64,000 nt of DNA from a bacterium A37T11 (GTDB lineage Bacteria; Bacteroidota; Bacteroidia; Sphingobacteriales; Sphingobacteriaceae). The notes beneath the pieces are model-generated. The model did not search any database. It was not told the DNA's origin and saw only the letters and a list, made by a program, of their open reading frames with translations. Where the stretch lies: positions 1 to 64,000 of the forward strand of contig FOBR01000017.1 of the NCBI GenBank assembly GCA_900109895.1, given 5' to 3'. The position numbers and the translations under genes were made by a program. Numbering within the stretch: position 1 is the first letter of the stretch; every line of letters starts with the position of its first letter. Shown here in pieces: positions 7,063 through 36,409 of the stretch.

Positions 7063-9723
7063 TTATTTTGCTGCCAATGCAAAGGATAGCTCATAGGTGC
7101 CAGTAGCCAGTTCGAAATAACGATTTTCGATGTTCTTTCTTTTACCGTTGAGCGTATAACTGATGGCTTTTTCAGGAATACTGACGGTGGCCGATACGCC
7201 GGTAGGCAATGAAATGTGCATGGTTTGCAGGTTTTCTTTTAATTCCCAATTTACGGAAACCGTTCCATAAGGCGTTTCCTTGGTGGTTTTTGACCAGGTA
7301 ACGCCTTTTGGAATTTGAGGCTCAATATATAGGTGTTTATAACCCGGTTGTTTTTCATCAGGCCGGATACCGCCTACCGCCTGATAAAACCAACTTCCGA
7401 TGCCATTATAACAATTGTGTACGCGGCTGCGTTCTCCACTCCAGTATTCCCAGGTAGTCGTCGCTTTGTTATTGATCATGTGCAAATAACCGGGATAATC
7501 GGGTTTTTTAAGCATGCCATACATAAAATCAGCCGCTTTATTTTTAATGACCCATTCGGTAAGAATGGGTACGCCAACCAAACCTACCCCAATGTGATCA
7601 TGATAGTGGGTCGATGTGCGGGCAATCAGTTGCTCCTTTACTGCTGTGTTTAAAGTGTCGGGAACGGCACCAACGAGCATCGGATAGGACATATCCAGCT
7701 GCGATCCGGTAGCATAGGTATGATCATTAGGGTGATAGAAAGTCTGATGGATCAATAAATTTAATTTCGCTTTTCGCGCCGCAAATTGTTGCCCCTCTTC
7801 CGGCTTTCCAAGTACGATGGCTATTTTTTCCAACACATCCAAACACTGGCTGATAAAACAATTATTGACCAGGTCTATGGATGATTGAGCTCCGGCATCC
7901 ACACCTATGGGAGCTAGCCAATCACCCAGATACCAATCACGGTAAGGTAGGTCAGGCCAGCGTTTCAGCAGTCCGTCAATGGTGTACTTTTCCACATACC
8001 TCATCCATTCTTTCATGGATTCGTAGTATTGGCTAATCAGGCGGGGATCGTTGTAATTTACATAGGTTCGCCAGGGCGCTAATACTATAAATCCACACCA
8101 ATAAGGGCCACCACCGCCGGCTCCCGGATTTGGGGCCACGTGTGGAAGGCTTCCTCCGTCACGCATGGAATCGTTCCAGGCCTGTAGCCAATTGTAAAAA
8201 GTTGGCGCTACATTATACATGGTTTGCAACGATTGGGTGGATGAGTTGCCGTCCCCACCATAACCTGCCCGTTCTAAATGCGGGCAGTCAACCATGTATC
8301 CGCTAAATGTGAGGCAGCTTAGCGTATATTGTACCATGTTATGGATGGCATTTAGATCAGCATCTGAACATTTGAACGTGGCTGCCGGTAGATAATCACC
8401 GTGGATTAGGTACCCTTTGATCTGTTCATTTGTGGGTTTAATTGGTAGGTTTATGAGCTGTACATAGCGAAAAGCATGGTGGTTGAACTTATTGCAGAAC
8501 ACATCCGATGCCTTCCCTGATGTAATATACAAGTCACTTTGTCCTTGGTCATCCAAATTCCCATCTTTTGTGAGGTTATCGCTGTACTTTGCGACAATTT
8601 CATGCCCTGCTGGAAGTTGTGCGGTATGTAGTTCAAACCAACCGGTGAGCACCTTTCCCATATCAATGAGCCATGAGTCCTTTCCCAGAGCTTTAATATG
8701 TATCGGGGTGATGGTTTCTTGCACTTTATCCGGATCGGACATTTGTGGGGAGGCGATTTGTTCTGCTCCAATAGATACTTGAACAACCGGAAACCAACGT
8801 AGTTTATTTAGCTCATCCGGCAATAGATTATCCGGAAGTATGCGCCGGTCTATTTTTTCCCCTCCAAATTGAAGGGCCATCCAAGTACCGGTATCCGAAT
8901 AGCCACTTTCGCGACCTTCCCAGGACGTGTCGGTTGCGATTATGGGTTTCCATATTCCCTTGAAATGAGTTTCCAATTCTGCGTTGACCAATGGACCATC
9001 ATAAGCTGATCCAAATGTGGTTTTTTTATACCATCCCTGTCCTAGCCATAGAATTACTTCGTTTTTGCCTTTTCGTAAATAGGGGGTCACATCATACGTT
9101 ACGATCAGCGAACGTTTATTTAGCTGTGAAACGGAAGGGGCCAATACATTGTTGCCTACTTTTTTGCCATTGATATATACTTCGTGATAGCCTAGCGAAT
9201 TTACATGAAGGAAAGTGGTTCCAGGTTTGGTAATAGTGAATGTTTTTCTTAACAATGGAGAGCGTATGTCTCCGGCTTTTGTTGAAAGTCCGATATAGTT
9301 ACCGCGCAAGCGGTCACCTTCTAAAATTCCGATACCAAATCGTTGGATAGGGCTCCATCCTGATCTTTTTCCTTGAGCGTCCCATACACGGACACGCCAA
9401 AATGCCAGCATCCGTGATTGTAGTTTATGCCCTTTATAAGGTACCATTACTGACTCCTGAGAGGGTACTTTGTCAGAATTCCACAGATCAGCGCGGTTTT
9501 TTGTAAGCCACAGGCTGTCTGATGCCACCTGGATTTCATAATACCGCTGCTGCATGGAATGGTCACTACGTATTTTCCAGCTGAAATGCGGTGCCGTACG
9601 ATCAATGCCATTCGGATTGGTCAGATTTTCACAAGTTAGGTCAGCAAGTGTGATGGATGAGGCCATCAATATCTTTAAGTTTATAAAACAGCATAAAATA
9701 ATAAGCATTTCTTTTTTCATCAT
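7063..9723 (-). CDS. GH78 family alpha-L-rhamnosidase
   Basis: Predicted exo-acting alpha-L-rhamnosidase of 886 residues with an N-terminal signal peptide (MMKKEMLIILCCFINLKILMAS). An Ig-like first domain (about 25-140) precedes the Bac_rhamnosid_N carbohydrate-binding-like domain (about 145-330), a beta domain and an (alpha/alpha)6 catalytic barrel (about 440-790), then a C-terminal beta-sandwich. The motif DCPHLERAGYGGDG holds the expected general acid E484; TTTWEYW holds the expected base E759. The start is ATG 9723, whose A overlaps the TAA of the upstream lipoprotein (TAATG); a second ATG follows at once. It is the last gene of the 11-gene unit and would remove terminal rhamnose in the periplasm. 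Confidence 0.92.
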   Translation of the reverse strand: MMKKEMLIILCCFINLKILMASSITLADLTCENLTNPNGIDRTAPHFSWKIRSDHSMQQRYYEIQVASDSLWLTKNRADLWNSDKVPSQESVMVPYKGHKLQSRMLAFWRVRVWDAQGKRSGWSPIQRFGIGILEGDRLRGNYIGLSTKAGDIRSPLLRKTFTITKPGTTFLHVNSLGYHEVYINGKKVGNNVLAPSVSQLNKRSLIVTYDVTPYLRKGKNEVILWLGQGWYKKTTFGSAYDGPLVNAELETHFKGIWKPIIATDTSWEGRESGYSDTGTWMALQFGGEKIDRRILPDNLLPDELNKLRWFPVVQVSIGAEQIASPQMSDPDKVQETITPIHIKALGKDSWLIDMGKVLTGWFELHTAQLPAGHEIVAKYSDNLTKDGNLDDQGQSDLYITSGKASDVFCNKFNHHAFRYVQLINLPIKPTNEQIKGYLIHGDYLPAATFKCSDADLNAIHNMVQYTLSCLTFSGYMVDCPHLERAGYGGDGNSSTQSLQTMYNVAPTFYNWLQAWNDSMRDGGSLPHVAPNPGAGGGGPYWCGFIVLAPWRTYVNYNDPRLISQYYESMKEWMRYVEKYTIDGLLKRWPDLPYRDWYLGDWLAPIGVDAGAQSSIDLVNNCFISQCLDVLEKIAIVLGKPEEGQQFAARKAKLNLLIHQTFYHPNDHTYATGSQLDMSYPMLVGAVPDTLNTAVKEQLIARTSTHYHDHIGVGLVGVPILTEWVIKNKAADFMYGMLKKPDYPGYLHMINNKATTTWEYWSGERSRVHNCYNGIGSWFYQAVGGIRPDEKQPGYKHLYIEPQIPKGVTWSKTTKETPYGTVSVNWELKENLQTMHISLPTGVSATVSIPEKAISYTLNGKRKNIENRYFELATGTYELSFALAAK

Positions 9724-11561: not shown

Positions 11562-11579
11562 GCTTTAGTTAAACTAGTC

Positions 11580-14500
11580 TTAAAATCCTATCTGAACGCC
11601 CAAATTTACTACCCGCTGGTTAAAATAGGCGTCGCCTGTGGAGTTGCTGGATATTTCAGGGTCTTGCTGGTATTTGTTATAATTTGTCCATGTGAGCAGA
11701 TTGTAGGCACTCAGGTATAGCCGTAGGTTGTTTAATCCTAAAGGAAGGTGGTTACTTGAAAACTGATATCCTACATCTACCGTTTTTAATCGGATATACT
11801 GTGCATCGATTAACCAGAAATCAGACATATAAGTGCGCGCACTATTAATCGTGGTAGCGTTTTGGGTCAACCGGGGGAACTGGGCTTCAGTTACATTTTG
11901 GGATGTCCAGCGTTGTTGATGGATGGGTTGGAATTGACTTTGAAAGGCTTCTATGCCAGTTCCCATGACACTAAAACTGTAGTTAAATGATCCTTGCACG
12001 AGTACGTTGATGCTAAATCCGGCATAATTTACGCCCAAGGTTAGTCCAAGAACCGTGCTGGGTAGGTTTGGCTTGCCGATAGGTCCCATGTCCCGCTCAT
12101 CAATAAAACCATCCGCATTTAAGTCCCGGTACTTCAAATCGCCTGCCTGTATACCGCCTTCTCCGGAGGATGCCAGCCCATACAGGGGTATTGCTGGTCG
12201 GTTATCTGCTGGAGCTACGCCATCGTCAGTATAGATTCGGGCTACGTCATTTTCTGAGTAAAAGCCGTCAAATGTATATCCAAAAGGTTGGTTAATTGCC
12301 CTGCCGGTTCGGGCTAGCCAAGCAAATGCAGGTAAGGCTTCGTCCTGATACAGAATTTTATTTTTGAATACCTGAAATACCAAATCGCTGCTGAAGGCTA
12401 CATTCCCAAATTTTGTTCGGTACCCAAGTATGCCATCGAATCCTCTATTAACCGTTTTTGCAACATTGGTAGGTGCAAATCCGATTCCCAGAATAGTTGG
12501 GATTGACCCACGGTAGGTGAGTTGGTCAAACCGGGTGTTATAAAAATAGTCAATGGTCAAACTGAGTTTTTGCTTGAACAGATTGACCTCGACCCCGATA
12601 TTTCGTTTCCATTCCTTCTCCCAGGTCACATTTGGGTTTCCCAATTCTCCTTCTTTAATGGTGTTTACCGTACTTCCACTGGTTCCAAATACATAGCCAC
12701 TCGATGGATTGTAAGTTTGGTTATACAGGTAACGCCCCCCACCGGTTACGTCTGAACCGACCAATCCGTAGGAACCCCGTATCTTTAGCAGATCGATCGC
12801 AGGCAGGTGATCTTTTATAAATGATTCCTGCGAAACAACCCAACCCAATCCGACTGCCGGAAACCAACCATAACGGTTATCCTTAGCAAAACGATCGGTG
12901 CCATTATAGGCGGTATTAATATCCAACAAATACTTGTTTTTATAGTAATATCCCACTTTGAAAGAGGTCCCTCTAAAATTGGCAGGTACATCGGCTTTTG
13001 TTGACACACTTTGTTGATTAAACAGCAGTAATGAACTGAGCTGATGGTCGCCAAAAGTGCGGTCAAAATTTAAGAATCCTTGCAAATTCAGGTTTCGGTA
13101 ATACTGATTGGTTGTGCCGATAACGGCATAGGGTGCCAATACAAATGCGCCTCTTGGGTCTAATAAATAGTTGCCTGTTAAACTATTATAATGGTAGGAG
13201 GGAGGAAGGCTTTCCCTAAACAGGTTGCGGCCATATTCCTCGACACCCCCATAGGCAACACGTGCGGTGAGAGAGAGTCCTTTGCTAAGGAAACTAAGCT
13301 GTTGAGTAGCCTGGAGCAATGCATTATAATCAGACCGTTTTGTCCGGGTATAGCCCCCATTTGCCAAGCGCGCATTTAAGGTAGGCAACGCCTCAGGGTT
13401 GAAGTCTGAATACGCATAGGCATAACTGCCATTGGGGTTAATAAATGGGGCAGAAAATGGTGTGATCTTCTGGAAATCATATATTTCTCCAACCGCATTG
13501 AGCGCTTGTGGCTGGTTTATATCTGCAAAACGCGTACTTAGATCGAAGCGCAGCTGCAGGGTTTCTGTCGCTTTGAGATCCAGGTTTGACCTGAAATTAT
13601 ATCGTCTGAAAAAGTAATTGGTGTTCACCTCATTTAACGGATCTTTAAAATCCCTCACAAGTCCTCCTTGGGTTAGTGCGCCACCTGATAGGAAATATCG
13701 TAAGCCGGTAGAACCACCTGAGAAGTCAATGTTAGCATTGGTTTGGGTGGCAAGCGACTTAAAAATGGCTTGATACCAGTCTACATCCGGATAGGTGTAG
13801 GCGTCTTGGCCGCTTTTAAACATGTCAAGTGCATGCGCGCTAAATTTTGCGGGCAATCCGTCGTTGGTATAGGCTTCGTTAATGAGGGTTGCTGCATCGT
13901 AAGAATTCAGGAATTTTGGAGTTCGTACTGGATTTTGAAGGCCTGTCTCTACGCGCAAATTCATTTGTGGTTGCCCACTGCTTCCACGCCGTGTAGTGAC
14001 CACCAAAACACCGTTTGCACCTTTAATTCCATAGATGGCTGTGGTAGACGCGTCTTTTAGGATGGATATGTTTTCGATTTCATTGACATTTATCTGCTGT
14101 AGTTGATCATATGAATACTCAATATCGTCAACAATAATGAGTGGTCGGTTTCCTTCATTGTTTAAGGAACTTACTCCGCGTATGAAGAAATCTGAGGCGT
14201 CTTTGCCTGGTTGGCCTGAACGCTGCTGTGCTACAAATCCGGGCATTCTTCCCATCAGCGTGTTTTGTACGTTAGCTGTGGGTATATTCCGGATCTCAGT
14301 TCCGCTGACTGAACTAACGGCTCCTGTATTGGTAATTTTTTTCTTGGTTCCAAACCCGACTACGACCACTTCATCCAATCCCTGATTGGAGGGCTGCATG
14401 GTTATATCGATATTATTCTTACCTAATACATGTACTTCATTGTCAGCAAATCCGATCAGTCTGACGATAAGTATATTAGAAGTACCCTGAAGGGTTAGCT

Positions 14501-14690
14501 GGAACCTTCCTTTGCTATCTGAGCCAGTGATGTTTTTTGCGATCCCCTTTTCCAATATAGTGGCTCCGGGCAATATTCCTCCTAAATCCCGGATGGTTCC
14601 CTTGATGATCCGCTGCTGGGCAACAAGGGTATGCTGGTTTAAAAGCAAAACTATCAGGAGCAATGCAAATCCTATTTTTTTCATGTTCAT
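11580..14690 (-). CDS. SusC/RagA TonB-linked outer membrane receptor, full length
   Basis: A 1036-residue receptor expected to import oligosaccharides across the outer membrane with a SusD lid. It has a signal peptide (ends near VAQQ), a carboxypeptidase-D-regulatory-like domain (about 27-105: IKGTIRDLGGILPGATI), the GLDEVVVVGFGTKKK segment typical before the plug, a plug (about 120-235) with ENISILKDASTTAIYG and NGVLVVTTRRG, and a 22-strand-type barrel ending in RVVNLGVQIGF. It follows a susD gene by 25 bases and precedes the 612-residue lipoprotein by 18. Unusually, no susD follows it. Its true partner may be either SusD of this locus. Confidence 0.92.
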   Translation of the reverse strand: MNMKKIGFALLLIVLLLNQHTLVAQQRIIKGTIRDLGGILPGATILEKGIAKNITGSDSKGRFQLTLQGTSNILIVRLIGFADNEVHVLGKNNIDITMQPSNQGLDEVVVVGFGTKKKITNTGAVSSVSGTEIRNIPTANVQNTLMGRMPGFVAQQRSGQPGKDASDFFIRGVSSLNNEGNRPLIIVDDIEYSYDQLQQINVNEIENISILKDASTTAIYGIKGANGVLVVTTRRGSSGQPQMNLRVETGLQNPVRTPKFLNSYDAATLINEAYTNDGLPAKFSAHALDMFKSGQDAYTYPDVDWYQAIFKSLATQTNANIDFSGGSTGLRYFLSGGALTQGGLVRDFKDPLNEVNTNYFFRRYNFRSNLDLKATETLQLRFDLSTRFADINQPQALNAVGEIYDFQKITPFSAPFINPNGSYAYAYSDFNPEALPTLNARLANGGYTRTKRSDYNALLQATQQLSFLSKGLSLTARVAYGGVEEYGRNLFRESLPPSYHYNSLTGNYLLDPRGAFVLAPYAVIGTTNQYYRNLNLQGFLNFDRTFGDHQLSSLLLFNQQSVSTKADVPANFRGTSFKVGYYYKNKYLLDINTAYNGTDRFAKDNRYGWFPAVGLGWVVSQESFIKDHLPAIDLLKIRGSYGLVGSDVTGGGRYLYNQTYNPSSGYVFGTSGSTVNTIKEGELGNPNVTWEKEWKRNIGVEVNLFKQKLSLTIDYFYNTRFDQLTYRGSIPTILGIGFAPTNVAKTVNRGFDGILGYRTKFGNVAFSSDLVFQVFKNKILYQDEALPAFAWLARTGRAINQPFGYTFDGFYSENDVARIYTDDGVAPADNRPAIPLYGLASSGEGGIQAGDLKYRDLNADGFIDERDMGPIGKPNLPSTVLGLTLGVNYAGFSINVLVQGSFNYSFSVMGTGIEAFQSQFQPIHQQRWTSQNVTEAQFPRLTQNATTINSARTYMSDFWLIDAQYIRLKTVDVGYQFSSNHLPLGLNNLRLYLSAYNLLTWTNYNKYQQDPEISSNSTGDAYFNQRVVNLGVQIGF

Positions 14691-14715
14691 TTACCTTTTA
14701 ACGTCAACACGTTGA

Positions 14716-16434
14716 TTAGTTCCAACCTGGGTTTTGCTGCATCTGACTATTTTTTAATACTTCGCTATCCGGAATGGGGTATAGATACATCGCCGTGGTA
14801 AAACGGGGTTCAAAAACAGCTATTCTATTGTAAGTCAGTGCGCCTGATGTCTGTACGATTTGCATCCCGTGCAAGGGTTGTCCCATCACAGAGGTTGCTG
14901 TTTTCCATCGGCGAATGTCCCAGTAGCGGTGTTCTTCAAAGGCCAGTTCCAAACGTCTTTCGGTATGAATCAGTTCCCGCAATTGGTCTTGCGACAATCC
15001 TGTAGGGATGCCATAATTACCTTCGTCACCTGGTAATATACCTGCCCTTGCCCGCAGTGAGATAAGTAGGTCATAAATATCCTGGCTAGGTCCCGAATAT
15101 TCATTTAATGCTTCCACATAATTTAAGATGACTTCTGTATACCTAAATAGGATGTAATCGCGTTGTACATCGCTGTATTGGGTAGCTTCTTCAAATGAAC
15201 CCATAAACTTCTTTAAGTAATAACTGGTGCGGGTCTGCATGGTTGTTCCATCGGGTTTATTGCGGCCCCCATCATAGGTTTGCAAGTTGCTGTTCAGCCA
15301 ACGTGCACCGTTGTAAAATAGGGTTTTTGAGAGTCGTGGGTCTCGATTTGCATACGGATCATTTGTGTTATAGTTGGCTGCAGTGCCTATGGGGATACCT
15401 GAGCTCATCGGAAATGCATCGACCAATTCCTGGGTGGGGCTAGTCTGGCCATTGCCACCTATTTGTGTGCCGAAGCCATAGGGTCCGTTTACACTTTCAA
15501 TGCTGTGATTTGCCCCCCACTGCTTGAAAAACAGTATTTCGGTATTATATTGAGTGATGAATAGTTGGGTTGTATTGTCAACTAGCTTATAGGTACCTAA
15601 GGCCATTATGGCTTTGGATGCGTCTGCTGCACGTAACCATCGTTGTTTATCAAACCCACTGTAACCAGTAAGGGGGTTGCTTGCATCTACATTGCCACCA
15701 TTAAATAATGGGCTAGCTGCGTACAAAAGTGTGCGGGCCTTAAGTGCTAATGCGGCCCCTTTTGTGACACGGTGACTGTTGCGTGAGGGGCTCGGCACGG
15801 GGTATGATAGTAAACTATCTTGGATAGCATCCATTTCTGATACGATGTAGTCGACGCATGCTTCAAACGAATTGCGCGGAAGCTCCACATTTTCGCCAAG
15901 TTCCAGGACGTTATCTCCCATAAGCGGAATGCCTCCGTATCGTTTAAGTAATTCAAAATAGGCCAAGGCCCGAAGGAAACGGGCCTCGGCTTTCCAGGTT
16001 CCTTTAACAGTCAGCCCTACCGGCAATGGGTCGAAGCGGCTGTCATTGACCGGAACGATACCAATGTTATTAATAAAAATATTGGCTGCCCGGATATTTT
16101 TATAACAAACCCCCCAGATCATGTCTGATGAGACTCGGTCGTAAGCATTATAACGGCCCTTTCCAAGCCTGCTGGCGTCGTTTTCTTCCAGGTCAGAAGA
16201 AATGGCGTCATCACTGGCTGCATCCAGGAGATTCCCGCCCACGCGATTGATGGTTACATCCTGCGGAAACATATCTGAATACATAGCGTTTAAAAATCGG
16301 TTTGAGTTGGTCCCCAACGAATCAAGCGGGTCAAATACATAATCAATGGTAATACTTTCCAGTGGAACCGCTTCGTAATCTTTTTTGCACGCAAATGCTG
16401 TTGTGCAAAGGAGTATGAATAAGATCTTTTTCAT
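14716..16434 (-). CDS. SusD/RagB family glycan-binding lipoprotein (B)
   Basis: 572 residues with a lipoprotein signal (MKKILFILLCTTAFAC, C16). The N-terminal TPR-containing SusD-like domain shows IRAANIFINNIG and AEARFLRALAYFELLKRYGGIPLM; the C-terminal RagB part has YTEVILNYVEALNEYSG, IHTERRLELAFEEHRYWDIRRWK and the closing YLYPIPDSEVLKN with QNPGWN. It is expected to cap a SusC receptor on the cell surface and bind the target glycan. It follows the short SusC by 11 bases, the usual susC-susD order, so that receptor is the probable partner. Confidence 0.93.
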   Translation of the reverse strand: MKKILFILLCTTAFACKKDYEAVPLESITIDYVFDPLDSLGTNSNRFLNAMYSDMFPQDVTINRVGGNLLDAASDDAISSDLEENDASRLGKGRYNAYDRVSSDMIWGVCYKNIRAANIFINNIGIVPVNDSRFDPLPVGLTVKGTWKAEARFLRALAYFELLKRYGGIPLMGDNVLELGENVELPRNSFEACVDYIVSEMDAIQDSLLSYPVPSPSRNSHRVTKGAALALKARTLLYAASPLFNGGNVDASNPLTGYSGFDKQRWLRAADASKAIMALGTYKLVDNTTQLFITQYNTEILFFKQWGANHSIESVNGPYGFGTQIGGNGQTSPTQELVDAFPMSSGIPIGTAANYNTNDPYANRDPRLSKTLFYNGARWLNSNLQTYDGGRNKPDGTTMQTRTSYYLKKFMGSFEEATQYSDVQRDYILFRYTEVILNYVEALNEYSGPSQDIYDLLISLRARAGILPGDEGNYGIPTGLSQDQLRELIHTERRLELAFEEHRYWDIRRWKTATSVMGQPLHGMQIVQTSGALTYNRIAVFEPRFTTAMYLYPIPDSEVLKNSQMQQNPGWN

Positions 16435-16445
16435 GACGTCTTTAT

Positions 16446-19280: not shown

Positions 19281-19299
19281 AATTTTAGGTGCTAAGTGC

Positions 19300-20304: not shown

Positions 20305-20329
20305 TCGTTAATAGTTGCGTTATTTCTAT

Positions 20330-20791: not shown

Positions 20792-20818
20792 AATTAGCTT
20801 TATGTTTGCTTCTAGTTA

Positions 20819-22507: not shown

Positions 22508-22547
22508 AATGGTTTTAAAAAAATGGTTAAACTTAAAATTTTACACG

Positions 22548-24869
22548 TTACTTGGTTTCTAAATTGTCATTGGGCGTTTTTCCCATTTCAAGCACCAGCA
22601 GCCCCCCTTGCCGCATGGTTTCATAGGTAATATAGCTTTTATGATATGGCTTTCCATTCCAAGTGATGGATTGGATATACCGGTTTGTTTTTGAATTGTG
22701 AGGTGCTATTATGGTCAATGTTTTTCGGGTAGGATATGCAGGGTCTAATTGTATGTTGATTTTTTTAAATACAGGACTAGTTATTTCAAAGCGGCCGTCT
22801 CCGGGGCAAATGGGATGTATTCCTGCAGCGGCCATTACGTACCAGGCAGACATCTGCCCGACATCTTCGTTTCCTACCAATCCTTTTTCTACGGCGTTGT
22901 GATAGGCTTTCTGACAGATTTCGCGCGTCCAATATTGCGTTAATGATGGTTTCCCCAGTCTATTAAATAAAAACGGCACGTGATGGACCGGCTCATTGGC
23001 ATGATTGTAAAAGGCGTTCCAGTGGAAATCATTGGGTGTTTTTTCAAAAAAATGGGTTAATTCCTGGAGCATCTTTTCCTTGCCACCCAGAAGGGTCGCC
23101 AAGCCGTCAAGGTCATGAGGTACAAACCATCCTTGCTGGCTGGGGTTGGTTTCTATGCAGCCGTAACCTTCGGTTTCCCGGCCTCCTTCTGGCCATGGAG
23201 CCCAACTACCGTCTGCTTCTTTGGGACGAAACGATTCTTTTGCCGGGTCGAATAATGCCTTATATGAATTTGCGCGGATGGCATACTTTTTTTCATCGTT
23301 TGGCTTGTTTAGCTTTTTTGCCAATAGGGAGACACACCATTCGTTGTAGGCATATTCCAGGGTTTGCGAAATACTTAACCCACCTGCAGTGTAGCCCTTT
23401 TCTCCATTTCCAAATTGCTCTACTGAGCCAACGGCAAGGTTATATGCTTTTTCTACATCGTAGTTTCTGATTCCTTTTACATAAGCATCTGCCAATACAT
23501 TGACCGCCGGATTGCCAATCATGCAGCCCGAGTAGGCGTTGAGTAATTCCCATCGTTCAAAGTAGTTTTTTTGCTTTTCTCCTGCCAGATCTATCAACGA
23601 GGCCAGCATGTCGTTTACTACACTTGGATTTATCAGGGTCTGTAACGGCATTTGGCTGCGGAATACATCCCATCCGCTGAAAATCGTTCGGCGGGTATTC
23701 CCATTTTTTGTTATTCCGATTTTGCCATCGCCTCGCGGATATCGGCCGTCCAAATCCTGTAAGGTGCGTGGGTCTAGCATAGTACGGTATAACGCGGTAT
23801 AAAATACAGTTCGTTCCTCTTCAGTGCCGCCGGTTATACTGATTTTACGAAGGAACTTGTTCCATCGTTGCCGGGCTTCGATACGTACTTTTTTAAAGTT
23901 CCAGCTGGGTATTTCTGTTTCCAGATTCCGTTTGGCGCCTGCTATGTCAACAAATGAAATACCGGCTTTCATCAATACTTCTTCACCTTCATTCGTTGCG
24001 AATTGTGTATAAAATCCGAGATGTTTTCCTTTCAATTCCCGGAGATTTTCATGTATGCTAGCATCGGCTACCCATTGTTGGTAGTAATCTGCTGTTATAT
24101 TTTCACGCTTACGGTGGGCAGTGTCTGGTATGTTTGCTGACCAGATGCCTACTTGCTTAAGGGGTTTACTGAATGTGGCATAAAAGTAAACGGTGTAGGA
24201 GGCATGCCCGTCGCCATTGCCCCAACCACCTCCCTCCGGTGTGCACTTCATCCACCCGATAATGGCAGTGTCGTTTACTACTTTTATATATTGTTCCGTT
24301 GAGGTGCCGCCTACTCTTCTGGCCAGGTCAATTTGAATGCGCGACTGAGCATGCCTTGGGAACTTAAATTTAAGGATACCGCTGTGGGGTGCTGATGTCA
24401 TCTCAGCTTCTATGCCATAGGTGGCCAATAATACCTTATAATATCCGCATGTGGCTTCCTCACTTGATTTGTCAAGCTGGCTGCGGTATCCTCCAGGTTT
24501 TCCTTCCTTTCCTGCATAGGTCGATAATTTTCCAGTGGTGGGTGTTACTAGGAGGTTGCCCAGGTCGCCATACCATCCAATCCCGCTCATTTGTGTGAAG
24601 GCAAATCCTTCAAGAGTTTTATGCTCATAGCTATATCCAGACCCATTATCCCCTCCGGTAATGGTGTTGGGACCTAACTGTACCATGCCAAAGGGGGTAG
24701 TGGCTCCAGGGATGGTTTTTCCAAGTCCGTGGTATACGCCGGCAGCCCCCACGCTCGTGCTTGCGCCAATAAATGGATTGACATAGTCGGCAGGCGTCTT
24801 GGTCGCTTGTTGCGCGCTAAGAACGTAAGGGACTATTCCAATAATTATACCAACGAGTAGCTGCTTCAT
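22548..24869 (-). CDS. GH92 family exo-alpha-mannosidase
   Basis: A 773-residue exported glycosidase. GH92 enzymes are calcium-dependent, inverting exo-alpha-mannosidases. The mature N-terminus has the family hallmark VNPFIGASTS then IPGATTPFGMVQLGP, the start of the N-terminal beta-sandwich (about 25-270). The (alpha/alpha)6 catalytic domain has IFSGWDVFRSQMPL, ETNPSQQGWFVPHD (E573 region), NEPVHHVPFLFN (around 625-636) and GNEDVGQMSAWYVMAAAG, where D669 fits the catalytic base position. It lies 6 bases after the SGNH gene and 40 before susD A. Linkage preference (1,2, 1,3, 1,6 or mannose-phosphate) cannot be told by eye. Confidence 0.92.
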   Translation of the reverse strand: MKQLLVGIIIGIVPYVLSAQQATKTPADYVNPFIGASTSVGAAGVYHGLGKTIPGATTPFGMVQLGPNTITGGDNGSGYSYEHKTLEGFAFTQMSGIGWYGDLGNLLVTPTTGKLSTYAGKEGKPGGYRSQLDKSSEEATCGYYKVLLATYGIEAEMTSAPHSGILKFKFPRHAQSRIQIDLARRVGGTSTEQYIKVVNDTAIIGWMKCTPEGGGWGNGDGHASYTVYFYATFSKPLKQVGIWSANIPDTAHRKRENITADYYQQWVADASIHENLRELKGKHLGFYTQFATNEGEEVLMKAGISFVDIAGAKRNLETEIPSWNFKKVRIEARQRWNKFLRKISITGGTEEERTVFYTALYRTMLDPRTLQDLDGRYPRGDGKIGITKNGNTRRTIFSGWDVFRSQMPLQTLINPSVVNDMLASLIDLAGEKQKNYFERWELLNAYSGCMIGNPAVNVLADAYVKGIRNYDVEKAYNLAVGSVEQFGNGEKGYTAGGLSISQTLEYAYNEWCVSLLAKKLNKPNDEKKYAIRANSYKALFDPAKESFRPKEADGSWAPWPEGGRETEGYGCIETNPSQQGWFVPHDLDGLATLLGGKEKMLQELTHFFEKTPNDFHWNAFYNHANEPVHHVPFLFNRLGKPSLTQYWTREICQKAYHNAVEKGLVGNEDVGQMSAWYVMAAAGIHPICPGDGRFEITSPVFKKINIQLDPAYPTRKTLTIIAPHNSKTNRYIQSITWNGKPYHKSYITYETMRQGGLLVLEMGKTPNDNLETK

Positions 24870-24875
24870 GATGTA

Positions 24876-26258
24876 TTAATAAGCTTGTACTAAAATCCGG
24901 TGTGAGGTGGGTTTGTTCAGCTGGTAGAGTTGTTTTCGGATAAGCGCCATTTGCTGTTCCAGATCTTTTCTCTTGGTCTTGTTGCGTACGATCTCATAAT
25001 CGGCCATTTTTGATTTTAAAAAAATATTGGTTGCAGTATAAGCCAATGCGGTATCACGGGCAGCTTCACTGTCATTAAACAACAAGCCCTTATCCTTTAA
25101 AAAATCATATTGTACCCAATAATAATTGCGTAACTTGGCTTCCAGCTCACGGTGCTGCCGGTTGAGGTCCATCAGCCGGAGTGCTTGTTTGTATTGAGGG
25201 GTATTGGTATATTCAGCCAGATTTATTCCAGCGGCCAGTTCTTTATTTGTAGTCTTCAGTAGGTGTTCTCCATCGATCAGCACGTCATAACGACCGTCAT
25301 CAAGTCCGGAAATGGCCAGCCGCTCCTGGTTAAATTCCTGCATAAAAGGGATGACCTGTAGTGCTTGTTTTTGGGTTTGGAAATTTTCCCAAACACGAGG
25401 TACGGTATCAATGGGATAGGGGAGTGATTTAGCCAGATAATCAAAGGTGATGCCTTGTTCTGTCTTTTTTATATTGTTGACAGAGGCATTTTGTGTCTGA
25501 TTTGTGCGAGCGGTTTTTGCATCCAATACGACATCTGCTACAGGTTTATTGGCAAAGCCTTGGTTTTTCAAAAAGAGGTAAGCCATCACAAAATGCCCGG
25601 CACTTCCCGGATGTATGCGGTCTGGGCCTGTAAGCGTGAAGTCGGACTTCCGAGCCTGTTCGCGCTGATTAATTGTTGTCATTGGATGGAACATGTCAAC
25701 AAAGTCCCAGTGGTTAATTTTTGCAGCTTCTTGTTGAAAAGCAGCGATTCGATCCATCGCTATACTTTTGCCTTTGAACAGGTTTTTGCTGTTCTCCATG
25801 GTTTCATCGTAAGGGGAGGAGGTCATCATGATTTTTCGCAACTTTGGAAGTTGTTGGAGCCTTGTCAGGATCTGATCAAAACTATTTTTTGAGGTAACGA
25901 CCGCGTCCTGGATGGTTTGCTGGGTTTTGGTGGTGTCTCCATATTCAAAATACTTGCTATCATTCATCCCAAATGTCAGCACCAAAACGGTTGGTTTTTT
26001 TGGCAGTAGGTCGCCATCAAGCCGGGCAAGAATCTGGCCGGCGACATCGCCGCCTACACCACCATTGATCACCCGTATGGGAATGTCTGGAAAATGGGTT
26101 AGGTAATATAACCAGATGTAGTTTTCGTAAAGTCCGGCTTCGGTAATGCTATTGCCAGCAAATACAATCTGGTCCCCTGGTTTAAAAGGGGCTATCTGCT
26201 GTGCATGAACCCCGAGGTGCATGGCTAAAAGAAATAGCATAGCTGAGAATAGTTTCAT
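24876..26258 (-). CDS. SGNH/GDSL hydrolase (probable carbohydrate esterase)
   Basis: A 460-residue exported esterase with signal peptide ending near VHAQ. The N-terminal SGNH domain (about 20-230) shows all four blocks: GNSITE with nucleophile S37, GGVGGD, GMND with N99, and DRIHP with D213 and H216. A C-terminal part of about 230 residues carries helices and strands without a recognised family, including a coiled region near 415-450 (KTKRKDLEQQMALIRKQ). Such enzymes in PULs usually remove acetyl groups from glycans so that glycosidases can act. It is 5 bases from the GH38-like gene and 6 from GH92, so co-expressed with both. Confidence 0.88.
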   Translation of the reverse strand: MKLFSAMLFLLAMHLGVHAQQIAPFKPGDQIVFAGNSITEAGLYENYIWLYYLTHFPDIPIRVINGGVGGDVAGQILARLDGDLLPKKPTVLVLTFGMNDSKYFEYGDTTKTQQTIQDAVVTSKNSFDQILTRLQQLPKLRKIMMTSSPYDETMENSKNLFKGKSIAMDRIAAFQQEAAKINHWDFVDMFHPMTTINQREQARKSDFTLTGPDRIHPGSAGHFVMAYLFLKNQGFANKPVADVVLDAKTARTNQTQNASVNNIKKTEQGITFDYLAKSLPYPIDTVPRVWENFQTQKQALQVIPFMQEFNQERLAISGLDDGRYDVLIDGEHLLKTTNKELAAGINLAEYTNTPQYKQALRLMDLNRQHRELEAKLRNYYWVQYDFLKDKGLLFNDSEAARDTALAYTATNIFLKSKMADYEIVRNKTKRKDLEQQMALIRKQLYQLNKPTSHRILVQAY

Positions 26259-26263
26259 ATGGA

Positions 26264-28849
26264 TTATAAATTATGCGGGTCGTTAAATGATAGTCGTATG
26301 GTTCTTACGCCAAATCTTGGCATGGCTATGCTGAAAGCGTAAGAACCGGTGGGTGTTTGCTTAGCGTCCGGATGCTGCAAGGGCCGTCCGTCTAATTCCT
26401 CCATCGTGATCCTGCTTGGATGTACTGGTACCAAAACCGTTAGTGGGCTAACATCAGATGCGGCATTAAAGATGCGCATGATCATCGCATTATCTTCAAT
26501 ATATAAGGCGCTGAGCTGGTAGCCAACTTTGTCAAAGGCTACTAGCGAAGTGGGCGTCTGGTATTGCAAATAGTCATCTGTTATCAATAACGGTGATTTC
26601 ATTCGGTCATCTTCCTGCCAAAGTTGGGCTTGGTCCCAGGTTTTGGCATGTGGCATCAGGCTATAGGAAATTTGGGTTGGACCATCTACCTGATAGTCTT
26701 TACCCCAAAGTCCTTTTCCCGCATATTGAACCGTTAGCCCAAGTGGGTGGTCTTTTCCATGCACGTAGGACGTGGTATGATCTGTAAATAAGGCCATCCC
26801 TTGCTGCCGTTTTTGGTCTACTTCATCAACCCAATCAAGCACCACATTATTTTTAATGCTATCCCAACGACTGAAAAAGGTATTATCCAGCGTACTTTCT
26901 GTGACGTCAAAAGGGGCATTTTTCATAATCTGCTGGCCAGCCAATGCGGTGGGGAATAATAGTAACAATTTATAGCGATCGTTGTAAAACGCCTTATTTC
27001 TATTTTCAGCTTTATAGGCTGTCTCTTCGTATTGACCGATATGTGGCTGGCCTTTCCAGTCAATCGTTAAGTTAAAGTCAATACGTGGCTGGCCATTCAC
27101 CAATATCAGCTCCTGGGTGAATGGATGCCCGGCGATGTGTCCGTCTACACGTAGTTTGAAGCGCACGGCTCCTTGTTCCACAAGGGTTATCGTTGCTGGG
27201 TTTTCTGCACTTGATCGAAAGGCATGTTCTTGATAAAAAAAGCCACGTAATTCATTGAAACCTGCGTTATGATTGGTATCAACCCATTCTTTCTGGAGGG
27301 ACGCCTTGCTTTTGAGACTGGTGATCACTCCTCCTTGTGCCGTATCGAGACAAATTTGATATTGATCTGATTCGATAAAGTAATTAGTACCTGCTTTATG
27401 TAGATTGACAAATGATTTTCCCATATTTCGTTTTGACTTTTTTAAATGATATAGTCGATCTGCCATTGCTGGTATTGTTGCTAAAAATAGTAAATCGGTC
27501 CCTGTGCCATCTACCCGTTTGCTCCATTGGGTAGGTTGTGCGCGACCTTGGCTATCAAATACGACCAGATTTGTGTCAGTTTTACTACCTTTAAATGAGT
27601 AATTTAACTGGCCGTTCTGTGTATAGGGTAATGTATTCCGAATGGTTAGTGATGTGCCAGCTACTGCCTGATGTTTAGCCGGGGTTAACACTTGGTTGGC
27701 GCTGCGAAGTGTAGCTGCAGTCCATTGAGCTACTTTTTCAGCCCAATTGGAATTTTCGACCCTATTATAGGGCACGATCCAACAGTCATGATGTTGGGCT
27801 AATAGCAGGCTGCGCCATGCTTCATCAAATTTTTGTCCGGGCCATGTTGCCTGCTTGAAAAAATAGTCCATGGTGGCTGAACGTTCGGCCAGTAACAATT
27901 TATTTTCTGATTGGCGGATTTGTTGGCCTATTCGCTGCAATATCTGAGATCCCCATACCAGGCTCACGCGGATGTCTTCTTGTGATAATCTCCATACGGG
28001 AGCTTGCACTAGCGGTATAACCATTGCGAAATAATCACTCCACAAGGTGGTTATAGTGGGTTGAAATCCGCTATTTATGTGACCTAACCAGGGTCCGTTA
28101 CGCCAGCCAGCGTCCTGAAGGCACATGCCCAGGGGATATTTGATGCCAGCTGCTATTGCCGATTGTACATAATTTAGACTGTTATTGTTGCCAATGGTTT
28201 CCCAGGTAGAACCAGGCTTTAATTGCTCCATGCCATACCTCGGAGATGTTGGTATGTTAGTGCCATCAGGTCCCTGCCAAGTAATCAAATCTTTGCCATA
28301 GGCTTTGACGTATCCTCCCCAACAGGTATTTGGGTTTTTTAAAGAAGCATACCGAATGCCAAAGGAGGTGAGTAGTTGTGGCAAACTGCTCGTAAAACAA
28401 GGTTCTTCTGAAGAATAGGTGGTAAATGTGAGCGTAGGAAAATGCTTTCTTAATTGCTGCATACCATAACTTAATTGCCGAATAATGCTTTCTCCGGAGA
28501 TATTGTACATATATGGTTGTCCATATGCCGGATTGACATATTCAATGCTTCTTCCTGTGGTTTGGTCGGCGGCCATCTTTACAACTGTTTGATAGCTTAT
28601 GGGATCAACTTGCTTAACCCAATCCCAGGTCTCAGGTTCTATTTCCAGATTAAGTTTCCAGGTGGGGTATTCTGTCAGTTTGGTTAGTAGGTATTGGGTA
28701 AAATCTTGGGGGTAATGGCCCCATTTTCCGCCATGATAGCCGTCAATAAAATAGGCTTTTTGTGCCACCGCTTTTGTGGGCATCCATAATGCATTGATTA
28801 GGGTGATAAATATGCAACAGCGTATGTGGACAAGCCGTAAAAATATCAT
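26264..28849 (-). CDS. divergent GH38-like glycoside hydrolase
   Basis: An 861-residue exported protein, first in the operon. The layout is that of GH38 alpha-mannosidases: N-terminal beta/alpha domain (about 31-290), central helical domain (about 320-400) with AQHHDCWIVPYN (H353/H354 in the place of the GH38 zinc histidine), and a long C-terminal beta region (about 430-855) with FTDHTTSYVHGKDHPLGLTV. The N-terminal zinc motif HxDxGW is not kept; the equivalent stretch reads IDGYHGGKWGHYP. A highly patterned block LEIEPETWDW, NISGESIIRQ, TYSSEEPCFTSSLPQ, LKNPNTCWGGY fills the active-site positions. It is probably a distinct clade whose substrate may not be mannose. Confidence 0.8.
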   Translation of the reverse strand: MIFLRLVHIRCCIFITLINALWMPTKAVAQKAYFIDGYHGGKWGHYPQDFTQYLLTKLTEYPTWKLNLEIEPETWDWVKQVDPISYQTVVKMAADQTTGRSIEYVNPAYGQPYMYNISGESIIRQLSYGMQQLRKHFPTLTFTTYSSEEPCFTSSLPQLLTSFGIRYASLKNPNTCWGGYVKAYGKDLITWQGPDGTNIPTSPRYGMEQLKPGSTWETIGNNNSLNYVQSAIAAGIKYPLGMCLQDAGWRNGPWLGHINSGFQPTITTLWSDYFAMVIPLVQAPVWRLSQEDIRVSLVWGSQILQRIGQQIRQSENKLLLAERSATMDYFFKQATWPGQKFDEAWRSLLLAQHHDCWIVPYNRVENSNWAEKVAQWTAATLRSANQVLTPAKHQAVAGTSLTIRNTLPYTQNGQLNYSFKGSKTDTNLVVFDSQGRAQPTQWSKRVDGTGTDLLFLATIPAMADRLYHLKKSKRNMGKSFVNLHKAGTNYFIESDQYQICLDTAQGGVITSLKSKASLQKEWVDTNHNAGFNELRGFFYQEHAFRSSAENPATITLVEQGAVRFKLRVDGHIAGHPFTQELILVNGQPRIDFNLTIDWKGQPHIGQYEETAYKAENRNKAFYNDRYKLLLLFPTALAGQQIMKNAPFDVTESTLDNTFFSRWDSIKNNVVLDWVDEVDQKRQQGMALFTDHTTSYVHGKDHPLGLTVQYAGKGLWGKDYQVDGPTQISYSLMPHAKTWDQAQLWQEDDRMKSPLLITDDYLQYQTPTSLVAFDKVGYQLSALYIEDNAMIMRIFNAASDVSPLTVLVPVHPSRITMEELDGRPLQHPDAKQTPTGSYAFSIAMPRFGVRTIRLSFNDPHNL

Positions 28850-28872
28850 ATTTGTGTGTACAATTAGTTAGG

Positions 28873-28880
28873 CAAAAGTA
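28873..28880 (-). promoter_or_regulatory. TAnnTTTG -7 box of the 11-gene PUL operon
   Basis: TACTTTTG on the minus strand lies 23 bases before the ATG of the GH38-like gene and about 67 bases after the stop of the hybrid regulator. No clear -33 element was seen, which fits a promoter depending on an activator. Confidence 0.5.
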
Positions 28881-28946
28881 GTTTTTTGCCTTTTTTAATG
28901 TACGTGTTATCGTGCCAATCTTCCGACCTATTATGCCTTTTTGGGT

Positions 28947-31900
28947 CTATACGTGCACTTTCTTGCCAAATGCCGTTGGTGTCTGGCTGAATTGTTTTAT
29001 AAAATTTCTGGTAAAGGTGTCTGACGATTTAAAACCGGTCTCCATGGCAATTTCATAGATCTTCTTGTCAGTGGTCAACAATAATTCGGCCGCTTTTTTC
29101 AGTCTGATAATGGTTATCATTTCTGAGGGGGAAACTCCCGAGATGCCGTTGATCTTGCGGTACAAATTGCGACGGCTCATATTAAGCGAGGCGGCTAGAA
29201 AGTCAACGTCTAAGGCTGTGTTTTGTAGGTTTGCCAGAATAACTTCATTTAATTTGCTGAGAAATAGATCATCGGCTTTTGAGATGGCGATACTGCCAAT
29301 TTCTGCTACTGCAGAAGTGGCAAAGCGGCGAATAGTGCGTTGCCTGTTTTCAAGCAAACTGACTATTTGGGCTTTCACGTAGGTGGGTGAAAAGGGCTTC
29401 TCAATATAGGTGTCTGCTCCCAAATGCAAGCCTTCTACTTTGGCTTGTATGTTGTTTTTAGCAGTAAGCAGGATAACCGGAGTATGACTAAGGTGGAGGC
29501 TAGTTTTGATGGCTTGACATAGTTCAAATCCGTCCATTTCCGGCATCATCACATCACTCAGTACTAAATCAATGTGGGTGGTATGTAGAAGTTCCAATGC
29601 CGATATTCCATTTGTTGCGGTGTGTACGTGATAGGCATCCTCTAATTCCTTTTTTAAAAAGTTAAGGATGTCTTCACTATCTTCTACGATTAAAAGATGC
29701 GTCTTTTTTTCATTCCTTTTATCGCTTGTTGCGGAATATGTGTTTTTTTCTAACTGTTTTTCGAATTCAAATTGTATTTCCTGATGGATGGGCACGGTTA
29801 ATTGAAACGTTATATGGTTTGCTTGGGGTTTGGCTTGTAAACTGCCTTTATGCAGCTCTGTGAGTGATTTTGCCATGGCCAACCCAATTCCTGTTCCTTC
29901 GGAATGCGCTTTGGAATGAAAACGGTAGAATGGTTCAAATAGTTTATTTTTTAAGTTTTCAGGAATAGTTTTACCATCGTTGGTTATTGTCACTTTGATG
30001 GTGTGTTCATCCTGCTGGGATAAGATGATTAGAATGTTTTTAAGTGCATATTTGATGGCATTATGTATCAAATTGCTTAGTATTTTAGTCATTGCTTCCC
30101 GGTCTATATAGGCATATATTATGCTTGCTTCCGTTTGGAGCTGATAGGTATATCCTTTTGATGCTGCAATGAGTTGGAAAGATTGGTAAATGTCTGTTAA
30201 AAGGTCAACGAAGTTTGTCTTAATAAAATTAAGTTTTAAATCTTTTTGTTCTATTTTACGAAAATCCAATAGTTGATTGGTCAGGCTGACCAGCCTGTTG
30301 GCATTCTTTTGTAAGAGTGAAAGATTACTTTTTACCTCATCCATATGAGTTGCTTGTTCTATTTTTTCTATAGGTGCAACTATTAGGGAAAGTGGTGTGC
30401 GGATTTCATGGGCCACGTTGGTAAAGAAATCGATCTTGGCTTCGTAGATTTCTTTGTCTTTTTCATGATTTAAATAGTCGATCATCCGTGCATTTTTTTC
30501 TTTAATTTTTCGATGGTAATACTGAATGGTCAGATAAATAAAAAGTATTGCCAATGCGGTATAAAGAACATAAGCGGGACTGCTTTGCCACCAGGGTGGG
30601 CTAATGGTAATAATCAATGACCGGGTGGGTCCCCAATGTCCATTAGCTATAGCGGCTCTGACCTTGAAAGTGTATTGGCCAGGCGGTAGTTTAGAATAAT
30701 ATATTTTGCGATTTGTTTTTAGGGATGTCCAAGTTTTGTCTATCCCATCCATTAGATATTGGTATTGGGTGAGAAGTGGAGATTGATAAGATAAAGCGGC
30801 GACATCTATACTGATGGAGGAATTATCATATGGCAAGTTGAGGGTTTTAGTCCTTATAATAGAGGTGCTCAACGGAGATTGACCTGTGTCTATTAGCAGT
30901 TCTTTATTTTCTGCTTGTATACCTGTTATATATAATGGTGCTTTGGAAACGGGTTTTAAAACATGGTTTTCATCAAAGCTAAGTAACCCTCGGGTTGAAC
31001 CAAAATAGAGCATTCCATTTGCTGCTGCATAGCCTGCATTGTAGTTGAATTGGCTTACGGGTAAACCATTGTTTTCTGTGAATGGCAGGATTTTCAGATT
31101 GTATAGGTCAAGCATAGCTAAGCCTGCTGCGGTGGCTATCCATAGGGTATTTTTCTTGCCTTTTAATATTTTAAAGGTGTTATTGCTGGGCAAACCTTCA
31201 TCTGTGGTAATGAATGTTAGTTTTTTTCTGTTACGATCGTATTTGGCTATCCCCTGTCCTTCGGTGGATAGCCAGATATTGTTGTGTTCATCTTCAGCTA
31301 TGCTGGTGACCGTATTGTTGAAATGGCCTCCATCTGAAAAATCCAGGTTAAGTGGGGTGCCGGTCATCGCTTTCGGATCGATATAAAAAAGGCCTGAGTA
31401 GGCTGACCCAATCCAAATTCCGCCTTCATGATCTTCAAATATGGTGGATACAACTATATGCTCTATACCTTTCACTGCTTTTAGTTGTTTACTAATCGGG
31501 TCATAGATAAACACACCATCGTTGGTGCCGGCTATGATAGCTGTTGATGTTTTAAATAGGTTGTTAAAATTGGTGGTCCCGTTAATATCCCTATTTTCTA
31601 TAAGTTGATTATATGTGGATAATCGTTGACCGGTTGTTTTATCAACGATATCTAAACCTTCCTGGCCTTTACCAATCCATAATTCGTTTTCATGGATCAT
31701 GATGCTTTCTATATGCTTATGGGGGTATGGGTGGCGCTCCATGGATTGATGTGCCGGATCTAAAATATAAAGTCCGTTGTTTTGGGTAGCTATGTATAAG
31801 TTGCCATGGTTATCGGGGATGATTTGTGAAATAACATTTGGGTTTTGTATGGATTTAGTGGGGATGTTTCGAGTAAATAAGTTATTATTTCTATGGTAGT

Positions 31901-32876
31901 AATTGATGCCTTCATATTTGCTGCAAATCCATATTCCTCCATCTTTATCCATATTTAAATCTTGAATATAGTCATCTGATAAGCTGTTTGGATCATTGTT
32001 TTGGTTAATATGGTTAATCTTTCCAGTGTTGGGATGGTATATATAAATACCCTCTGTGGTGCTAACCCAATATTCATCTTGCGCAGTTTTCAAGATGTCA
32101 GTAACTGTAATGCCTTTTCCGTCTTGGGTATTGCTCAAAAGGTCTTTATAGGTGTTTGTATGGGTGTCAAAAATTTTTAAGCCTTGGTCCTGGGTACCGA
32201 TAAGTATGGTGTGTTGGGGAGTATATAAAAGCCGGTTGATTTTTTTTGTGTTGGAAGAGCGGGATGCGTTGAATACGTTATATGAGATAAGTGTGTCTCT
32301 TTTTGGATCATAACGCGATAGCTGCCCGGTATTGGTGCCTACCCAAATTTCTCCTGTTAGGGTTGCCATGATAGAGACACAGTTTTTGTAAGAATAAGCA
32401 TGATAGGTGTCTTTAATTGTATTATATTTGATCAATTGTCCTAAGCTTATAAACCAAAGGTTTCCATGTTTATCTTCTGTTATGTCAAATATCCACTTTG
32501 TAAAGGTAAAGTTAAGCCGGGTGAAATTCTCTTTAATGCTGTTATATTTCCATAATCCATTATGTGTGCCGATCCATAATGTCCCGCCCTTATCTTCATA
32601 AAGTACACTTACAAAATTATTACCAATGTTTTTGGACGATGGATTGCCAGTACGGAAAACTTTAAAATTATATCCGTCAAAGCGATTAAGCCCATCTAAT
32701 GTGCCAAACCAAATAAATCCATTCTTGTCTTGTATGCTACAATTAACAAAATTATAGGATAGGCCATCTTTATTGGTGTAATGCCTGAACCAATGTGTCT
32801 GGCCAAGGCCATATGTGTTAAATAATAGGATCCAGCATATCTGTGCTACCATAAATATAAAGATTTTTTGAACCAT
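28947..32876 (-). CDS. hybrid two-component system regulator (HTCS)
   Basis: A 1309-residue one-protein signalling system. A signal peptide (1-25) leads to a periplasmic sensor of reg_prop beta-propeller repeats (about 30-640: IWFGTLDGLNRFD, LWIGTHNGLWKY, IWIGSAYSGLFYI) and a Y_Y_Y domain (about 690-760). One membrane helix (768-786) follows, then HisKA with H823 in VAHEIRTP, HATPase (about 920-1030, GTGIGLAMAK), a receiver with D1108 in LVLSDVMMPEMDG, and an AraC-type DNA-binding domain (about 1215-1305). Such proteins sense oligosaccharides released in the periplasm and switch on the neighbouring PUL. It lies just upstream of the PUL operon on the same strand, in its own unit. Confidence 0.95.
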   Translation of the reverse strand: MVQKIFIFMVAQICWILLFNTYGLGQTHWFRHYTNKDGLSYNFVNCSIQDKNGFIWFGTLDGLNRFDGYNFKVFRTGNPSSKNIGNNFVSVLYEDKGGTLWIGTHNGLWKYNSIKENFTRLNFTFTKWIFDITEDKHGNLWFISLGQLIKYNTIKDTYHAYSYKNCVSIMATLTGEIWVGTNTGQLSRYDPKRDTLISYNVFNASRSSNTKKINRLLYTPQHTILIGTQDQGLKIFDTHTNTYKDLLSNTQDGKGITVTDILKTAQDEYWVSTTEGIYIYHPNTGKINHINQNNDPNSLSDDYIQDLNMDKDGGIWICSKYEGINYYHRNNNLFTRNIPTKSIQNPNVISQIIPDNHGNLYIATQNNGLYILDPAHQSMERHPYPHKHIESIMIHENELWIGKGQEGLDIVDKTTGQRLSTYNQLIENRDINGTTNFNNLFKTSTAIIAGTNDGVFIYDPISKQLKAVKGIEHIVVSTIFEDHEGGIWIGSAYSGLFYIDPKAMTGTPLNLDFSDGGHFNNTVTSIAEDEHNNIWLSTEGQGIAKYDRNRKKLTFITTDEGLPSNNTFKILKGKKNTLWIATAAGLAMLDLYNLKILPFTENNGLPVSQFNYNAGYAAANGMLYFGSTRGLLSFDENHVLKPVSKAPLYITGIQAENKELLIDTGQSPLSTSIIRTKTLNLPYDNSSISIDVAALSYQSPLLTQYQYLMDGIDKTWTSLKTNRKIYYSKLPPGQYTFKVRAAIANGHWGPTRSLIITISPPWWQSSPAYVLYTALAILFIYLTIQYYHRKIKEKNARMIDYLNHEKDKEIYEAKIDFFTNVAHEIRTPLSLIVAPIEKIEQATHMDEVKSNLSLLQKNANRLVSLTNQLLDFRKIEQKDLKLNFIKTNFVDLLTDIYQSFQLIAASKGYTYQLQTEASIIYAYIDREAMTKILSNLIHNAIKYALKNILIILSQQDEHTIKVTITNDGKTIPENLKNKLFEPFYRFHSKAHSEGTGIGLAMAKSLTELHKGSLQAKPQANHITFQLTVPIHQEIQFEFEKQLEKNTYSATSDKRNEKKTHLLIVEDSEDILNFLKKELEDAYHVHTATNGISALELLHTTHIDLVLSDVMMPEMDGFELCQAIKTSLHLSHTPVILLTAKNNIQAKVEGLHLGADTYIEKPFSPTYVKAQIVSLLENRQRTIRRFATSAVAEIGSIAISKADDLFLSKLNEVILANLQNTALDVDFLAASLNMSRRNLYRKINGISGVSPSEMITIIRLKKAAELLLTTDKKIYEIAMETGFKSSDTFTRNFIKQFSQTPTAFGKKVHV

Positions 32877-36315: not shown

Positions 36316-36409
36316 GATATTTTTTTTTACAAAAGACCCCAATTAGTATTACGCTAATGTTAAGTTACCATTAATAAAGAAACCCGCCATTTGATCAGGA
36401 TAGAACAGG

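Follow-up and report, generated by a model that had tools for sequence, protein, structure and literature searches.

The GH183 family of endo-acting, retaining D-arabinofuranosidases was founded on the DUF4185 domain (PMC10115798, PMC10509167). The catalytic pair is D33/D51 in EndoMA1 of Microbacterium arabinogalactanolyticum (PMC10509167) and D170/D188 in DgGH4185b of Dysgonomonas gadei, the two aspartates being 18 residues apart in both enzymes, and the E381A variant of DgGH4185b is still active (PMC10115798). In the characterised D-arabinan clusters, GH183 is accompanied by GH172 and GH116 (PMC10115798, PMC10509167), while the known alpha-mannan PULs use GH76, GH99 and GH125, i.e., endo- or exo-acting enzymes for alpha-1,6- or alpha-1,2-mannan (PMC9213526). 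The literature that we searched held nothing useful on DUF4961, DUF5004, the structure 7br2, or LAM and GH92 PULs.

The window analysed here, i.e., the whole stretch of 64,000 nt, belongs to a genome of 5.09 Mb in 60 contigs (contig C21 in our numbering) and carries on its minus strand, at positions 7063-32876, a 12-gene PUL in which one HTCS gene is followed by a unit of 11 co-directional genes. Like the HTCS-regulated PULs of Bacteroidota that follow the SusC/SusD paradigm, it combines an HTCS, tandem SusC/D genes, surface lipoproteins and co-directional GH and esterase genes; it differs from them in that two SusC/D pairs are joined by DUF4961 and DUF5004 genes, and in that it encodes a GH183-type surface enzyme and a non-canonical GH38-fold protein. 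The locus is an HTCS-controlled PUL of ordinary architecture, correctly delimited, with two unusual enzymes that make up its main interest: a surface lipoprotein of the GH183 type, here in a non-D-arabinan setting, and a member of a GH38-fold family devoid of the GH38 nucleophile. The features are listed below from the HTCS gene onwards, with the evidence in brackets.

28947-32876, minus strand: HTCS (hybrid two-component sensor/regulator) with Reg_prop propeller, Y_Y_Y, HisKA, HATPase, receiver and AraC HTH domains (Pfam)
28870-28891, no strand: perfect 8-bp inverted repeat AGGCAAAA-n6-TTTTGCCT, between the HTCS and GH38-like genes (sequence scan)
26264-28849, minus strand: GH38-fold protein, 861 aa, with signal peptide, Tyr113 for the GH38 nucleophile and HGG for the HxD zinc motif (Pfam, Foldseek, alignments)
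24876-26258, minus strand: SGNH/GDSL esterase, 460 aa (406 bits to PDB 7br2)
22548-24869, minus strand: GH92 exo-alpha-mannosidase family protein (best PDB match BT3130, 6f8z, then 7zgm)
20819-22507, minus strand: SusD2, SusD-like lipoprotein (Pfam; lipobox LLSC)
20330-20791, minus strand: DUF5004 lipoprotein (Pfam; lipobox MGSC)
19300-20304, minus strand: DUF4961 protein (353 bits)
16446-19352, minus strand: SusC2, SusC-like TonB-dependent transporter without CarboxypepD domain, probable start 19280 (domain search)
14716-16434, minus strand: SusD1, SusD-like lipoprotein (domain search)
11580-14690, minus strand: SusC1, SusC-like TonB-dependent transporter (domain search)
9723-11561, minus strand: surface lipoprotein, 612 residues, with N-terminal DUF5018-like region, ricin-B beta-trefoil and DUF4185 (GH183-type) propeller with D285/D307; proposed endo-glycosidase (domains, profile and structure searches, lipobox)
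7063-9801, minus strand: GH78 alpha-L-rhamnosidase family protein, probable start 9723 (domain search, PDB match)

An earlier note on this DNA had described one HTCS and an 11-gene unit, and the ORFs, the Pfam/NCBIfam domains and the gaps of 5-40 nt within the unit bear this out: the propeller, HisKA, receiver and AraC domains are found in a single protein (Pfam), next to two SusC/SusD pairs and co-directional CAZyme genes. The note had also mentioned overlaps between genes; its gap sizes stand, and the two long overlaps were artefacts of choosing the longest ORF, which vanish or come down to 1 nt with plausible signal-peptide starts. For SusC2, the most likely start is the ATG at 19280, which gives a signal peptide (MHIRTYLIAIGLLSS...) and leaves a gap of 19 nt; for GH78 it is the ATG at 9723, which overlaps the DUF4185 stop by 1 nt. 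As for gene content, the GH38-like, SGNH, GH92 and GH78 enzymes had been rightly named; the second SusC/D pair with its DUF4961 and DUF5004 genes had gone unmentioned, and DUF4185 unrecognised. Both Pfam domains of GH92 were found in the GH92 protein, and its alignments place a candidate Glu and a candidate Asp in aligned motifs, an exact mapping to the BT3990 numbering (general acid E533, base D644) not being achieved. The GH78 protein has a Pfam six-hairpin domain (324 bits), with Glu residues aligned to positions 636 and 895 of 3w5m, a pair that we take to be catalytic.

The 612-residue lipoprotein, with its propeller of the DUF4185/GH183 type, is a candidate endo-enzyme and probably supplies the chain-cutting step. 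Besides a lipobox (LVAC) and a ricin-B trefoil, it carries a DUF4185 domain that scores 54.7 bits against a Pfam cut-off of 39.5. As no other CAZyme of the unit has a lipobox, it is the obvious protein to propose for an endo step at the surface. Its AlphaFold model (pLDDT 87) finds as its two best PDB matches in Foldseek the EndoMA1 structures 8ic1 and 8hhv (E 1.4e-10 and 3.6e-10, about 16% identity); the TMq to EndoMA1 is 0.37, a low value partly explained by the extra domains of the model. The profile search returned EndoMA1 as a weak and partial match (E 0.04) that does not align the Asp pair residue by residue, as well as the putative hydrolase 4hbs. Across 26 sequences, D285 and D307 are invariant; their spacing is 18 residues in most relatives; in the window protein, which has an insertion of 4 residues, it is 22. 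E390 and E571 are invariant in the same 26 sequences, neither of them at the distance expected for E243, the third acidic residue of EndoMA1, of which we identified no equivalent here. The protein thus resembles the GH183 endo-D-arabinanases (EndoMA1, and DgGH4185a/b of D. gadei PUL42) in its DUF4185 fold, its Asp pair and its nature of secreted protein or lipoprotein, and departs from them in sequence, in its added beta-trefoil lectin domain and in its neighbours, which are GH92, SGNH, GH38-like and GH78 instead of GH172 and GH116. To our knowledge, the GH183 enzymes characterised to date cut D-arabinan and not mannose-containing chains, which counts against the substrate that we propose below.

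The GH38-like protein matches GH38 over its whole length, by domains as well as by fold (Foldseek, Ams1 first), and shares with Ams1 of S. pombe, 5kbp of Enterococcus faecalis and MngB of E. coli a His-His-Asp near the fourth zinc-ligand position. Unlike these alpha-mannosidases, it has Tyr113 instead of the nucleophile Asp, HGG instead of HxD and EEPCF instead of PDxFG. Indeed, hhalign, hmmsearch and MAFFT agree in pairing the Asp of MngB TQTDTT with Tyr113 of GQPYMY, and the position of the nucleophile and zinc ligand (D204 in dGMII, D92 in MngB) is occupied by this Tyr in 80 sequences out of 80. H39-G40-G41 is just as constant (80/80) at the site of the HxD zinc motif; we paired it with MngB PHMHWD by eye, the alignments stopping short of the N-terminus. 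The pairing of the acid/base residue is ambiguous in the GH38 alignments, and the predicted model is moderate in the catalytic domain, where many blocks have a pLDDT below 70. On these replacements, we rejected the protein both as a canonical alpha-mannosidase and as the endo enzyme. About 20 polar residues are nevertheless invariant or nearly so over the 80 divergent sequences, the invariant set being D36, H39, E69, E71, E103, Q111, E120, E148, E149, K171, D195, E208, Q245, D246, Q290, H353, H354 and D355, and such strong conservation speaks for a different activity, not for a decayed site. Judging from the alignments, the protein looks like a member of a distinct and widespread enzyme family. 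Other GH38-fold proteins of the order (our loci L203-L209) also seem to be without the canonical nucleophile (DAGYxNxNTS, MPYESMYDGE), and there may be several GH38-like lineages with altered active sites.

In a one-genome-per-species scan we found 310 relatives of the GH38-like gene, most of them in Bacteroidota and as a rule next to GH92 and SGNH genes. Among the 80 loci that we kept, an SGNH gene lies nearby in at least 62, GH92 in at least 60, a SusD2-type gene in at least 44, DUF4961 in at least 41 and DUF5004 in at least 36, these counts being lower bounds because the flanks were at most 10 kb. The GH38-like/SGNH/GH92 cassette occurs in Sphingobacteriaceae, Chitinophagaceae, Cytophagales and Flavobacteriaceae. 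Within the order, full-length relatives with 42-49% identity are present in about 50 of 301 genomes (57 with any match), and the closest named relative that we found is that of Olivibacter domesticus (56% identity), where GH38-like, SGNH, GH92, GH92b, SASA and DUF4185 genes follow one another in a single run (L123). Most of 20 related-genome neighbourhoods preserve the order SusD2-DUF5004-DUF4961-SusC2-SusD1-SusC1, so the cluster is no chance grouping; the dual SusC/D-DUF4961 core was found in 17 of the 20 larger neighbourhoods, and 11 of 20 have DUF4185 homologues no more than 20 kb from the GH38-like gene. In genomes G251, G196, G288 and G157, a full-length or lectin-bearing DUF4185 homologue adjoins the GH38-like gene or is one gene off; in G271 and G294, the rest of the gene set is kept without the GH38-like gene. 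Recurring accessory genes encode additional types of GH92, a GH78 of a second type, GH130, GH2 with domains of the exo-glucosaminidase/mannosidase type, esterases of the SASA and CE1-like kinds, small proteins with DUF4185, Lgt- and Lnt-like proteins, and a FucP-type transporter and ROK kinases (both named by eye from the sequence). A mini-PUL on the plasmid of Hymenobacter sp. DG25B (NZ_CP010056, 77995-88798, our locus L226) carries in a row SusC/D, a ROK kinase, mannose-6-phosphate isomerase, a sugar MFS transporter, and a SASA (sialate O-acetylesterase) gene between two DUF4185 genes. Taken with these plasmid genes, the richer related loci suggest mannose as one of the major products and an esterified heteroglycan as the substrate. 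We also looked for a missing half of the PUL in the rest of the genome, and the surroundings of the other GH92 and GH130 genes contained no second set (best GH92b match 46%; a GH130 at 58%, in an unrelated setting). The Lgt-like genes (prolipoprotein diacylglyceryl transferase) are located inside or directly after the related PULs in 7 of the 20 neighbourhoods (e.g., L036:1555-2721 and L040:11971-13482), the Lnt-like ones less often.

We believe that the locus is probably a PUL under HTCS control, directed at an acylated heteroglycan rich in mannose that most likely comes from microbial or plant matter in soil. We infer this substrate from family names only, and SGNH, GH92 and GH78 each span several specificities, which counts against our reading. 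The acyl groups that the earlier note had placed on the target are supported by the SGNH esterase. Its alpha-mannose ends hold as far as GH92 is concerned; the GH38-like protein, for its part, is no evidence for them, since the canonical nucleophile and HxD motif are replaced in every member examined. Rhamnose, which it had considered possible, is suggested in this unit by a single GH78 gene, though GH78-type genes recur in the related loci. The note had recognised no endo-acting enzyme and found this odd, unless the 612-residue lipoprotein or the GH38-like protein supplied the activity; the oddity is gone with the DUF4185/GH183-type lipoprotein, for which the guess was very likely right given its predicted propeller, and the same guess fails for the GH38-like protein, whose catalytic motifs are replaced.

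In the proposed mechanism, the trefoil lectin of the surface lipoprotein (9723-11561) would bind the polymer, and its GH183-type retaining propeller (Asp285/Asp307) would cut it in a predicted endo mode. SusC/D pairs 1 and 2 would import the fragments, DUF4961 and DUF5004 being likely accessory surface proteins. In the periplasm, the predicted location of the remaining enzymes, and presumably in this order, the SGNH esterase would strip acyl groups, GH92 would take off terminal alpha-mannose and GH78 alpha-L-rhamnose-type ends, and the GH38-fold protein would perform a further cleavage by a chemistry unlike that of known GH38 enzymes. A fragment, as putative inducer, would bind to the HTCS propeller and induce the operon.

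Other targets have to be weighed against this one. Fungal rhamnomannans bear mannose and rhamnose end groups of the GH92/GH78 type, and a PUL for fungal alpha-mannan or rhamnomannan (e.g., peptidorhamnomannan), in which GH92 and GH78 would trim side chains and DUF4185 would cut the backbone, fits the several GH92, the GH78 and the esterases of related loci; we deem it unlikely, as neither the unit (domain search) nor the scanned accessory genes contain GH76, GH99 or GH125. Compared with the GH76-containing PUL of Salegentibacter sp. Hel_I_6 and the alpha-mannan PULs of B. thetaiotaomicron, our locus likewise has GH92 with SusC/D, and the loci related to it add several GH92 and a GH2, but SGNH, GH78 and DUF4185 stand here in place of the three missing families; the absence of GH76 and GH99 domains from the unit speaks against a yeast alpha-mannan PUL. 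A D-arabinan PUL (arabinogalactan or lipoarabinomannan) aimed at the actinobacterial envelope would make DUF4185 an endo-D-arabinanase, with GH92 acting on mannose caps or branches, SGNH on succinyl or other acyl groups and GH78 on the rhamnose linker. In its favour are EndoMA1 as the top structural match, the conserved Asp pair, the alpha-mannose and acyl groups of LAM, and the one GH172 and two GH116 genes of the same genome. These genes, however, lie on other contigs (C8, C59), and neither family was seen among the identified recurrent genes of the related loci; the linked monosaccharide genes are of the mannose type and identity to EndoMA1 is only about 16%, which makes the idea quite improbable. 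In its simple form, the D-arabinan PUL was rejected, GH172 and GH116 being unlinked. At 105000-124999 of contig C59 (L241), the genome has another SusC/SusD locus, in which two GH116 (DUF608) genes are found. Glycoprotein N-glycans or O-mannosyl glycans, for which no polymer-cutting enzyme would be needed, seem to us very improbable targets: GH92 is closest in the PDB search to the alpha-1,3-mannosidase BT3130 and to 7zgm, presumably the plant N-glycan enzyme of PMC9522356, and relatives add GH130 and GH2, families able to remove the core beta-mannose, yet GH18, GH85 and PNGase are all absent from the unit and the scanned accessory genes, GH78 and repeated esterases are ill-suited to common N-glycans, and two SusC/D pairs with a lectin-bearing surface hydrolase suggest a polymer. 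The absence of these endo-glycosidases and of PNGase from the unit speaks against an N-glycan PUL.

The role of the GH38-like protein can be understood in two ways. It could be a degenerate, non-catalytic GH38 serving in glycan binding only, as Tyr113 and HGG in all members examined would allow; the polar residues kept over 80 divergent sequences are atypical of a decayed site, and the gene is often partnered with GH92 and SGNH, so we hold this to be somewhat unlikely. We tentatively put forward, as a serious possibility, that it defines a new family of glycoside hydrolases or lyases built on the GH38 scaffold, having Tyr113 where the nucleophile and zinc-ligand Asp would be and a remodelled site (EEPCF, QDAGW, HHD). 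It would act jointly with a DUF4185 enzyme whose specificity is new and not for arabinan, their substrate being a glycan that contains mannose and is widespread in soil. The locus raises two questions, whether GH183/DUF4185 includes endo-glycosidases for substrates besides D-arabinan, and what role a GH38-fold enzyme with a Tyr at the site of the nucleophile Asp may have; either answer would widen CAZy assignments and help in naming a common soil glycan.

Terminator-like sites showed no excess over shuffled sequence in our scans, and the sigma-70 promoter scan stayed at chance level. The 97-nt gap between the HTCS and the first gene of the operon holds the inverted repeat (28870-28891), which includes TACTTTTG on the minus strand; the Bacteroidota -7 consensus is TAnnTTTG. 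The repeat has no other exact copy in the window, with a chance expectation of 0.81 per shuffle when up to 3 mismatches are allowed, and on its sequence it could be a candidate promoter, operator, regulator site or hairpin. Just upstream of the PUL, at 33070-38304 of the window, a TonB-family outer-membrane gene (OMP_b-brl_4) and a divergent GH127 gene lie outside the conserved set.
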